A stretch of DNA of 28,295 nucleotides from a virus. Every line of letters starts with the position of its first letter. Position 1 is the first letter of the stretch. The position numbers and the translations under genes were made by a program. This document shows positions 5,319 through 13,791 of the stretch, piece after piece. Below the pieces are notes generated by a model. That model had not been told where the DNA came from and did not search any database. It was given only the letters and a program-made list of their open reading frames with translations. The DNA lies in IMG/VR virus record IMGVR_UViG_3300025674_000280, positions 1 to 28,295 of that record; one strand, given 5' to 3'.

Positions 5319-6143
5319 TCAGATCAATGCCTCCTGTTTTTCTGGGTCAAAATTCATCCATACAACTTCAGTGCGGCTGGTCTTGTCTTTTGACGCTGTA
5401 CAAACCGCTTTAAATTCGTGTTTTATCCAGTTATCTGGAAAAGCGCATTTTTCTTGATTGTAATTAGAAAGAATAAATTTTCCTTTCACCGTTGCAAGTA
5501 AATCGATCAACTCTTGAAAGTCTTCTATGGTGTAGCCGCTATAGTGCCCTTGTTCGGCTTCTGGATAAGGCGGATCAATATAGAAAAACGTATTCTCATG
5601 ATCTCGCTGTTGAATGACTTTAAGCGCGTCTGTGCATGATATAGAAACGTCTCTAAACCGCTCATGTAATGCTTCTAATCTCGCTGTGTGATTCCACCAC
5701 GTAGCGCCCTGATTTCTCGCTGGAGTTCCTTTCGTACGCGCCCAGCCTCCGTTTATGACATTTGAAAAACTTTGTTGAATATTTACATAATAAGCCCACG
5801 CGAGATCGACGCTAGTATATGCCACTGATCCCGCTTGGTGGTCTTTCATAATATCCTTTGCGAGTCGGGATTCTGCCTCGCTGTGAAGCGTCCATACTAT
5901 ACGCTGATAGAGTTCCCCGAAATTGTTTTGGAAACATCGGTAAAAATTTATCAAACGCTCGTCTTTATCGTTTATAATTTCATGCCCATAGTCACTATTT
6001 GAAACCTTTGGCTTTCCCTTGGCGAAAAATACCGCACCACCACCGAAGAACGGCTCAACGTACATCAGGTGATGCGGTATCAAGGGCACGATCTTGGATG
6101 CCATGCGCTGCTTACCACCGTAATATGAAATTATTGGTTTCAT
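5319..6143 (-). CDS. dam: DNA adenine-N6 methyltransferase, D12 class (copy 1)
   Basis: This 274-residue enzyme of the Dam/D12 family would transfer a methyl group from S-adenosylmethionine to adenine N6 and may protect phage DNA from restriction. The N-terminal AdoMet motif ISYYGGK (5-11), motif I EPFFGGG (30-36) and the catalytic DPPY (190-193) are all intact, and the length is typical. ATG at 6143 gives the conserved MKPIISYYGG start, but there is no convincing Shine-Dalgarno before it; a run of nine G lies 22 bases upstream. A paralogue with about two-thirds matching residues is encoded at 12970-13791. The target sequence cannot be read from the protein. Confidence 0.92.
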   Translation of the reverse strand: MKPIISYYGGKQRMASKIVPLIPHHLMYVEPFFGGGAVFFAKGKPKVSNSDYGHEIINDKDERLINFYRCFQNNFGELYQRIVWTLHSEAESRLAKDIMKDHQAGSVAYTSVDLAWAYYVNIQQSFSNVINGGWARTKGTPARNQGATWWNHTARLEALHERFRDVSISCTDALKVIQQRDHENTFFYIDPPYPEAEQGHYSGYTIEDFQELIDLLATVKGKFILSNYNQEKCAFPDNWIKHEFKAVCTASKDKTSRTEVVWMNFDPEKQEALI

Positions 6144-6179: not shown

Positions 6180-6287
6180 TTAGCCTGGCATTATAGCTCC
6201 TAACAGTCCCATTATTGTAGCCAAGTGTAGCAGTCCTATCCCTGCCAACATGTTAATCCCTACAGTGAGTAGTCTTTCTAAAATCAT
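6180..6287 (-). CDS. Small hydrophobic membrane protein (35 aa)
   Basis: This is a 35-codon ORF whose ATG (6287-6285) overlaps the TGA of the upstream secreted-protein gene as ATGA, the junction type used throughout this operon. The product begins MILERLLTVGIN and continues as one hydrophobic stretch rich in Leu, Ile, Gly and Met to the C-terminus, enough for one membrane span. It may act with the secreted protein encoded just before it. A holin-like or exclusion role is possible, but nothing in the sequence decides this. Confidence 0.55.
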   Translation of the reverse strand: MILERLLTVGINMLAGIGLLHLATIMGLLGAIMPG

Positions 6288-6556
6288 TTTGCCCCCTTCG
6301 CGTTTACTACGTTGAACCGCTTAATTTCTAGCCTCTGCTGCTGTGTATTCCAGTAGCTATCAGCCTTATTTGGTTCAGCTTTACCTGTAACGACTAGCCC
6401 GTTCATAGCTTCTCCAAAGGCTCTAAGCCCTTCAGCATCGCTATTGAGCATAAATCGCCCAGATTCGGCTCCTGCGAAGAGGTTTTCTCCAGTAAGGGTA
6501 CAACCTACCCCCGTCAGACAAAACGCCCCTACGAGGCATATCATTAGCTTTTTCAT
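6284..6556 (-). CDS. Small exported protein, possible lipoprotein
   Basis: The 90-residue product starts with a clear signal peptide: MKK, a hydrophobic core, then LTGVGC with Cys19 as a possible lipidation site. The lipobox is imperfect because position -3 is Gly, so ordinary secretion is also possible. The mature part (AGAESGRFMLNSDAEGLRAF onward) is polar with no recognised domain. A strong ribosome binding site, AAAGGAG with five bases before ATG, fixes the start. The ribosome binding site and the first codons are nearly identical to those of the gene at 6899-7156, exactly 600 bases away. The stop overlaps the small membrane ORF at 6180-6287. Confidence 0.7.
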   Translation of the reverse strand: MKKLMICLVGAFCLTGVGCTLTGENLFAGAESGRFMLNSDAEGLRAFGEAMNGLVVTGKAEPNKADSYWNTQQQRLEIKRFNVVNAKGAK

Positions 6557-6586: not shown

Positions 6587-6742
6587 TCACCTCGACCACG
6601 ACCACGACTTCCACAACGACCCCGACCACGACCACGACCACAACGACCTCGACCACGACCACGACTTCCACCCCGACCCCGACGACGACCCCGACCACTT
6701 CAGTGCTTGGTCTTGTGCAGTTCTCATTATTGCTGCCGTCAT
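6587..6742 (-). CDS. Trp/Ser-rich dipeptide-repeat small protein, copy B
   Basis: This 51-residue ORF starts one base after the stop of copy A (TGA-T-ATG). It reads MTAAIMRTAQDQALK and then becomes a low-complexity run in which Ser (nearly always TCG) alternates with Trp, Gly, Arg, Leu or Lys, ending WSWSR before TGA. It shares the MTAA start and a WSGSSSGSGWKS-like block with copy A. Support for translation is the matching start, near-equal length, and the chain of stop-start overlaps with the upstream gene. The composition is so odd that the DNA repeat itself could be the functional element. No function is recognised. Confidence 0.5.
   Translation of the reverse strand: MTAAIMRTAQDQALKWSGSSSGSGWKSWSWSRSLWSWSWSGSLWKSWSWSR
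6589..6697 (-). repeat. Hexanucleotide array 1 (NGGTCG type)
   Basis: This is a degenerate tandem array of six-base units, CGACCN on the plus strand and NGGTCG on the minus. It underlies the C-terminal two-thirds of the copy B ORF. It contains GGGG runs separated by short spacers near 6670-6700, so the minus strand could fold into G-quadruplex-like structures. Confidence 0.8.
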
Positions 6743-6743
6743 A

Positions 6744-6902
6744 TCACCTCGACCTCGACCACGACCGCAACCCCGACCTCGACCACGACCCCGACGACGA
6801 CCAAGACCTCGACTTCCACCCCGACCCCGACGACGACCAAGACCCCGACCGCGACCACGACAACGACCGTTCGTAACTAAGCCTTAAATGCGCTGCTGTC
6901 AT
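6744..6902 (-). CDS. Trp/Ser-rich dipeptide-repeat small protein, copy A
   Basis: This 52-residue ORF has an ATG (6902-6900) overlapping the TGA of the upstream 85-residue gene as ATGA. It starts MTAAHLRLSYERS and continues as Ser alternating with Trp, Arg, Gly, Leu and Lys to SWSRSR and TGA. The coding DNA is an array of hexamers of the form NGGTCG on the minus strand, with the variable base at the first codon position, so changes are nearly all amino-acid changing. A 29-base block (6810-6838) recurs exactly in copy B (6662-6690). Other frames over the array are also open, as expected for such repeats. The minus frame is chosen for its junctions and its MTAA start, which copy B repeats. Confidence 0.5.
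   Translation of the reverse strand: MTAAHLRLSYERSLSWSRSGSWSSSGSGWKSRSWSSSGSWSRSGLRSWSRSR
6747..6871 (-). repeat. Hexanucleotide array 2 (NGGTCG type)
   Basis: This is a second array of the same units, covering most of the copy A ORF. It is separated from array 1 by about 50 bases of ordinary sequence. A 29-base block at 6810-6838 is identical to 6662-6690 in array 1, so one array probably arose by duplication of the other. Confidence 0.8.
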
Positions 6903-12969: not shown

Positions 12970-13791
12970 TTATAACAGGTTTGGTTGTATTTCTGGGTTG
13001 AAATTCATCCATAAAACCTCGGTGCGCTTTCCTCGCGCCTCTATCTTTCTTGCTGCCGATGAAAATGCTTCGATGTCTTTTCTGATCCAAACATCAGGAA
13101 AAGTATTTTCTGGCTGCGGATAGTTTGAAAGAATGAACTTGCCTTTTATTGTTGCAAGCAGGTCGATCAAGTCTTGAAAGTCCTTTGTTGAATAGCCTGA
13201 GTAGTGCCCTTGGTCTACGTTCGGATACGGCGGATCGCAGTAAAAGAAAGCCGTTTCAGAATCTCGTTGCTGAATAACTGTCAGCGCATCGGTGCATGAT
13301 ATTGTTACTTTTTTGAATCGGTAAAATAGCTCTTCCAGCCTTGCTGTTTTATTTGTCCAAGCTGCGCCTTCATTTTTATCTGGTGTTTTTCTAATTCGTT
13401 GCCAACCTCCGTTTAGCTTACTTGCAAAACTTTGCTGAATGTTCACGTAATAAGCCCATGCAAGTTCTAAATCAGAATGAGATTGAGGCTCTTTCATTAT
13501 CTCTTTTGCGCGTCGATATTCTGCTTCGCTGTGCGGAGTAAAGGCTATTCGTTGATATAGTTCCCCGAAGTTTGTCTGGAACTGACGATAGAAGTTTATT
13601 AGCATTTCGTCTTTGTCGTTTATGACTTCATGATAATGTGTATCGCTTGTTACCTTTGGCAGCCCCTTGGCGAACATGACTGCACCGCCACCAAAAAACG
13701 GCTCGACATACATCTGGTGGTCTGGAATGAGCTTAACGATATGATGCGCCATTTTTTGTTTCCCGCCGTAGTAAGAAATGATTGGTTTGAT
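12970..13791 (-). CDS. dam: DNA adenine-N6 methyltransferase, D12 class (copy 2), ATC start or decayed start
   Basis: This paralogue of the Dam gene at 5319-6143 has the same motifs: ISYYGGK, motif I EPFFGGG and catalytic DPPY (186-189). Aligning the N-termini puts its first residue at an ATC codon (13791-13789), seven bases after a strong AAGGAG (13804-13799). That start gives 273 residues against 274 in copy 1. No ATG, GTG or TTG occurs between this codon and the upstream in-frame stop. The first ATG lies 13 codons in and would remove the N-terminal AdoMet motif. So either ATC initiates weakly, the gene is silenced, or there is a sequence error. It lies opposite to its plus-strand neighbours, like a separately acquired gene. 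Confidence 0.85.
   Translation of the reverse strand: MKPIISYYGGKQKMAHHIVKLIPDHQMYVEPFFGGGAVMFAKGLPKVTSDTHYHEVINDKDEMLINFYRQFQTNFGELYQRIAFTPHSEAEYRRAKEIMKEPQSHSDLELAWAYYVNIQQSFASKLNGGWQRIRKTPDKNEGAAWTNKTARLEELFYRFKKVTISCTDALTVIQQRDSETAFFYCDPPYPNVDQGHYSGYSTKDFQDLIDLLATIKGKFILSNYPQPENTFPDVWIRKDIEAFSSAARKIEARGKRTEVLWMNFNPEIQPNLL

Follow-up and report, generated by a model that had tools for sequence, protein, structure and literature searches.

The array genes studied here are neither a satellite nor a local oddity, but part of a recurrent two-gene phage cassette, in which a gene with a predicted Sm/LSm fold is followed by a gene for a Ser-dipeptide repeat protein. The cassette is real and widespread in environmental phages. 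It is undescribed in the literature searched, where a search of open-licence papers returned no description of such repeats or of DUF6948. The window, the whole stretch of DNA that was analysed, comprises the 28,295 nucleotides of the IMG/VR virus record IMGVR_UViG_3300025674_000280.

The ORF list and the sequence agreed with the layout given in the original prediction: two minus-strand ORFs that both start with MTAA, a TGA-T-ATG joint between them and an ATGA overlap with the upstream gene (Table 1). The hexamer array and the exact 29-base shared block were recovered with Tandem Repeats Finder and by direct comparison, and the identity of the two blocks stops at the block ends. On the minus strand, 24 of the 29 GGTCG motifs of the whole window lie inside the 316 bases of the arrays, and any other 316-base stretch contains at most 2. 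The kept Ser spacing that had been claimed for both genes was largely, though not strictly, found in gene A (position parity 18 vs 2) but was lost in gene B (8 at even vs 8 at odd positions), for which codon-sized indels are responsible. The arrays of the window are more degenerate than the typical arrays of its relatives. The proteins A and B have a net charge of +8 and +5 and contain 6 and 10 Trp per about 50 residues, respectively; Pfam and PHROG searches with them gave no match. A plus-strand ORF of 102 aa also spans the repeat. Since several frames of the repeat are free of stop codons, an open frame alone is weak evidence, and coding therefore had to be shown from relatives.

Table 1. 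Positions of the cassette genes, repeats and adjoining gene in the window
Feature	Position	Strand	Remarks
Lipoprotein-like gene (by sequence), 90 aa, downstream neighbour	6284..6556	minus	Retained in relative L010
Array gene B, 51 aa	6587..6742	minus	Leader MTAAIMRTAQDQALK, then Ser/Trp-rich tract; starts one base past the gene A stop
NGGTCG hexamer array in gene B, about 19 units	6589..6698	minus	Tandem Repeats Finder, period 6
29-base exact block, gene B copy	6662..6690	minus	Exact match to gene A copy
Array gene A, 52 aa	6744..6902	minus	Leader MTAAHLRLSYERS, then Ser alternating with W/R/G; ATGA overlap with the Sm-like gene
NGGTCG hexamer array in gene A, about 20 units	6746..6868	minus	Tandem Repeats Finder, period 6
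29-base exact block, gene A copy	6810..6838	minus	Exact match to gene B copy
Predicted Sm/LSm-fold protein ('IADTGRF' protein), 85 aa	6899..7156	minus	Constant partner of array genes; AlphaFold2, Foldseek/VIA-align

The predicted Sm-like partner gene and its linkage to the arrays

The gene upstream of the arrays, overlooked as a partner in the original prediction, is the constant companion of the array genes, and its product is predicted with high confidence to adopt an Sm/LSm fold. IMG/VR was scanned with the window protein, which yielded 80 loci, and 58 members were aligned (alignment A1). With this alignment as input, AlphaFold2 modelled the family with a pLDDT of 96.5. When the model was compared with the PDB by Foldseek/VIA-align, the best matches were nearly all Sm/LSm proteins, with a Z of about 10 and, in most rows, an rmsd of 1.1-2.5 Å over 60-73 residues; the predicted fold of the window protein is the five-stranded Sm fold. 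The family consensus VIxGRGAI resembles the 'RG' turn of Sm2. The window protein has VRVSLGAV instead, and the Sm1 Asn was not seen in the alignment. The window gene matched no PHROG and no Pfam entry, Sm-like Pfam families including Hfq were absent from the matches of the 58 family members even at E up to 1, and a profile search of the PDB sequences with the family found no solved structure. A second Sm-like family, 'VYETG', is homologous to the window family (hhalign 95.6%). Its model had an AlphaFold2 pLDDT of 81, and every top PDB match was Sm/LSm. The same kind of array gene stands behind it in nearly all loci, with a differing leader, e.g. MRGxKQKY.

The association of the two genes is well supported. 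As had been predicted, the relatives carried a repeat ORF next to the IADTGRF gene: in nearly all of them, an ORF that begins with a short leader (consensus approximately MNAAILRxGYD) and continues as a (W/R/G-Ser)n tract lies behind the Sm-like gene. After deduplication, an array was located at most 400 bases behind the Sm-like gene in 144 of the 173 listed occurrences, and the rest mostly had the array elsewhere in the locus or a shorter array. The array gene started in the four-base overlap ATGA in 84 of these 144 cases. The linkage was also seen in DNA-pattern scans that were made without reference to the Sm-like gene. Among the 69 W+G+R arrays with enough flank, 54 had an Sm-like gene at a distance of at most 1.6 kb, in every case on the strand of the array, and 15 had no recognisable one nearby, whereas only 1 of the 38 other arrays from these scans had such a neighbour (Fisher p 2e-15). 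The scan for GGAGC was of limited use because plain hexamer satellites occur in viral contigs.

A cassette contains one to four mini-genes. The original prediction had regarded the tandem pair as apparently maintained. One copy was found in the close relatives L010 and L012, two in L009 and L011 and four in L019 and L077, so the pair of the window is not a conserved feature. Fusions of the Sm-like and array proteins were sought and none was found. Few members of the window family come from outside environmental viral contigs: one GenBank phage record and four MAG contigs, all carrying arrays; a plasmid scan gave no relative of the window Sm-like gene. PADLOC, applied to the Sm-like genes and their neighbours, and Rfam returned nothing, with no match to a defence family.

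In the window, a VapE-like helicase, RecT and a Gam-like gene lie on one side of the cassette and a methyltransferase and the terminase on the other. The suggested link to the packaging genes did not extend to other phages: the neighbours vary, and where a function could be recognised it was mostly that of a DNA polymerase, helicase or Gam-like end-protection gene. The adjoining lipoprotein-like gene probably does not belong to the cassette. It is itself adjoined by a short hydrophobic ORF (window about 6180-6290, minus strand), possibly a small membrane protein. Two related methyltransferases are encoded at 5319-6143 and 12970-13752, both on the minus strand; both match type II methyltransferase models, and the former matches the D12-class N6-adenine methyltransferase of Pfam. 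In two other loci, a (W/R/E/Q-S-A-A)n repeat protein is encoded about 2 kb upstream of the Sm-like gene (L081 413-1210, L076 3-209). In L183, near 5208 on the minus strand, a W/R/G-Ser array stands behind a protein with EAxRAYWEA repeats in place of the Sm-like gene.

Codon constraint and turnover of the array units

That the array gene is under constraint at the level of the protein is well supported. The partner residue of Ser, in 180 arrays located behind Sm-like genes, was Arg in 33%, Trp in 30.5% and Gly in 30%. The codons TGG and GGG occurred together in 98% of the arrays, but the two Arg codons AGG and CGG in only 20%, and the choice between them tracks the G+C content of the genome. 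The Ser codon is 95.6% uniform inside an array and is TCG, AGC, TCA, TCT or AGT between arrays; the identity of the residue is thus kept from phage to phage across the disjoint codon families TCN and AGY. TCC, otherwise an ordinary codon for Ser, was never the dominant one in the 180 arrays; an array of GGUCC would be self-complementary. Like neighbours are depleted (WW z -3.5, GG z -5.8, RR z -4.0), which is the opposite of simple slippage. Frame-breaking indels, which had been named in advance as an argument against coding, were absent from the 3,654 unit steps of the Sm-linked arrays, compared with 8 breaks in 1,790 steps of arrays that are not linked to the gene. The relatives thereby bore out a coding frame that is kept while the order of the units changes.

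The variation is concentrated in one base of the unit. The first base has an entropy of 1.52 bits, and none of the other five exceeds 0.24 bits. In L053, L062 and L066, whose Sm-like genes are 7-13% apart, the aligned units differ 10-20 times at the first base and 1-3 times at the other five bases together. Homogenisation of the units is therefore fast, yet the mixture of the three residues is preserved. The arrays also present a rare reversal of the usual pattern, with fixed synonymous and variable non-synonymous sites. The units turn over far faster than the flanking sequence. Some loci with identical Sm-like genes have unequal arrays of 13 vs 34 or 9 vs 37 units, a difference in which short-read assembly error is possible. 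Selection for composition together with rapid shuffling of units accounts most simply for the evolution of the arrays. Diversity-generating retroelements likewise concentrate amino-acid change at set positions and leave the rest fixed, but the arrays differ from them by gain and loss of whole units and by first-base differences in hexamers, and neither a template repeat nor a reverse transcriptase was noticed.

Three other explanations were considered and set aside. A targeted mutator that places a random N predicts all four bases, yet A and C exclude each other. Stop readthrough from the Sm-like gene into the (Gly-Arg)n frame of the TCG arrays was dropped because the other Ser codons would give Ala, Val, Leu or His/Gln. 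For a RiPP precursor with leader and core, no modifying enzyme was noticed as a constant neighbour.

A sister class of (Tyr/Asp/Ser/Asn-Gly)n genes

When Gly alternating with Tyr and Tyr/Asp codons was scanned for, 117 distinct heterogeneous arrays were obtained. The variable residue is Tyr in 46%, Asp in 29%, Ser in 15% and Asn in 7%, and His, the fourth NAY codon, accounts for less than 1%. A small Sm-like or DUF6948-like gene is located directly upstream of 82 of the 96 arrays with flank, a count that is partly circular because the profiles were built from genes next to those arrays. Of five representatives of the genes before X-Gly arrays, three matched DUF6948 (PF22253). DUF6948 phage proteins resemble the window gene in two respects: in structure, their BFVD models rank among the best viral matches of the window Sm model, and a dipeptide-repeat gene follows them. 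They differ in that neither the window family nor the VYETG family matched the Pfam profile of DUF6948, and in that the alphabet of the linked array is X-Gly. The profile similarity of the DUF6948-like genes to the window family is weak.

The sister pair occurs in cultured phages, namely Rhodobacter RcapNL, Rheinheimera Barba, Iodobacter PLPE, Vibrio IKEMa6-1 and Pectobacterium Sabo and its relatives. In six Rheinheimera Barba isolates, the upstream gene (315 bases) and 500 bases downstream are identical and all six arrays differ, by one-unit gains and Tyr/Asn exchanges. In five phages of the Pectobacterium type (Sabo, Koroua, Ymer, Amona and Setonix), the leader MSKLIKPE(K/R)YG is kept and the arrays differ throughout, all of them in frame.

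Such genes are easily misannotated. Gene 25 of the Chlorobiaceae phage CV-1-33 (L472 1780-2025), which lies behind a DUF6948-like gene, is annotated as MAMAMALA... and reads GYGDGDGSG in another frame; it is probably annotated in the wrong frame. In Iodobacter phage PhiPLPE, an unannotated (Y/D/S-G)n ORF (L470, about 1171-1410) lies directly behind gp84, a DUF6948-like gene. L366, L372 and L412 also contain X-Gly arrays but lack a recognisable Sm-like gene. The leader MKYPKG is common to L372 and L412, as is another kind of protein upstream, and L366 has several tandem copies.

Possible function of the cassette and competing explanations

LSm4 and SmD1/D3 combine an Sm-fold core with low-complexity or RG-dipeptide tails. 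In Hfq, the Sm-fold core carries a disordered C-terminal domain that tunes RNA binding or assembly (PMC5606850). The phage cassette is similar to these proteins in that an Sm-fold core is combined with a disordered low-complexity or dipeptide-repeat segment. In the phages, by contrast, a gene of its own, translationally coupled and with a separate leader, encodes the tract, whose alphabet is W/R/G-Ser or X-Gly and whose units turn over very fast; the searches showed no sequence homology to these proteins. The Ser alternating with Arg, Gly and an aromatic residue also recalls the sticker-and-spacer composition of the eukaryotic SR/RS and RGG proteins, which are unrelated and resemble the array protein in composition only.

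From this comparison a mechanism can be proposed to which we give somewhat less than an even chance: the array protein may be a disordered multivalent partner that is given in trans to an Sm-like ring and serves nucleic-acid assembly, where we infer the interaction, the binding and the assembly. The cassette would act as two translationally coupled genes. The product of the first would have the predicted Sm/LSm fold and presumably form a ring for the binding of RNA or single-stranded DNA. The product of the second would be short, disordered and of low complexity, with a conserved leader of about 8-14 residues followed by 10-40 Ser dipeptides with approximately equal Trp, Arg and Gly, and would provide in trans the contribution that disordered tails make in cis in Hfq, LSm4 or SmD1. 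Trp and Arg 'stickers' and Gly and Ser 'spacers' would make multivalent contacts, through which an RNP assembly or condensate with the Sm-like protein and nucleic acid would arise, probably at an early stage of infection. Units could be gained, lost and reshuffled quickly as whole hexamers because composition, and not order, would matter.

Other readings have to be weighed against this one, and several of them are weakened because the sister class is acidic or neutral and by the codon evidence. A neutral hexanucleotide satellite that is open in several frames by chance, with no protein selected, is barely credible. Pure hexamer satellites do exist in viral contigs, the repeat is free of stops in several frames and the unit number changes fast, but the reading is already contradicted by the near-equal W:G:R, the single Arg codon per array, the Ser kept across TCN and AGY, the avoidance of like neighbours, the lack of frame breaks, the conserved leader, the ATGA overlap and the strand-specific linkage to one gene family. 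The repeat could itself be functional as DNA or RNA, e.g. as an array of sites to which the Sm-like protein binds to regulate the mRNA it is made from, and the peptide would then be a by-product. We consider this unlikely, and the structural or binding site of the original prediction was not supported. GG recurs invariantly every six bases, the wobble bases of Ser and Gly/Arg are nearly fixed inside an array and the array lies directly behind a gene with a predicted RNA-binding fold; the other half of the unit nevertheless varies among related phages (GGTCG, GGAGC, GGTCA, GGTCT, GGAGT) as the Ser codon switches, A and C are mutually exclusive at N although either keeps the GG pattern, and the array RNA was less structured than shuffled sequence in both cases tested (z about +2.4). 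Very improbable is a translation device in which ribosomes are slowed or drop off on the NGG codons of the array, by which the coupled genes would be tuned. In its favour, NGG makes up half of the codons, the genes are translationally coupled and peptidyl-tRNA drop-off is promoted by NGG codons close to the start (PMC12204400). Such a device should accept AGG and CGG alike, yet the arrays use one of them, the leader places the array mostly 8-14 codons past the start and hence beyond the early window, and the sister class is without NGG codons.

Two further readings keep a functional protein and assign it another role. Short Arg/Trp peptides are classical membrane-active peptides, and a cationic Trp/Arg-rich peptide that acts like the disruptins or other phage lysis or host-killing peptides would agree with the charge and Trp content of the two window proteins, a composition compatible with a disruptin, and with the lipoprotein-like gene and the terminase near the arrays in the window. 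The constant partner is Sm-like and not a lysis gene, genes for DNA polymerase, helicase and Gam-like proteins are among the neighbours elsewhere, and the (Y/D/S/N-G)n proteins are acidic or neutral instead of cationic, which leaves such a role with a small chance. Improbable, too, is that the protein is a hypervariable decoy or acts in counter-defence, with arms races against host factors as the driver of its fast change. Such a role would explain the very fast turnover, the arrays that differ between isolates on one host with identical flanks and the multiple copies in some phages; a composition that is held while the order is free fits a low-complexity tract equally well, and the PADLOC analysis of the Sm-like genes and their neighbours gave no defence-family match.

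The Sm-plus-array reading can be extended to both classes. Phages may possess an undescribed general system in which an Sm-like protein is paired with a fast-evolving 'alphabet' gene (W/R/G-Ser or Y/D/S/N-Gly) as a tunable phase-separating partner of viral RNPs. A repeat mechanism, either dedicated or exploited, would shuffle, add and remove the hexamer units of this gene and alter one codon at its first base only. We regard this wider proposal as doubtful. Since the X-Gly class is present in the cultured phages RcapNL, Barba and PLPE, the idea is testable now.

In conclusion, many environmental phages devote coding space to a low-complexity protein that changes faster than its surroundings, yet keeps its frame, alphabet and composition. 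Its gene lies beside one whose product is predicted to share the fold of the cellular RNA-processing core. If both proteins work together, the cassette would be a minimal viral version of the principle of an Sm core plus a disordered tail, and its arrays would be ready-made natural sequence libraries.
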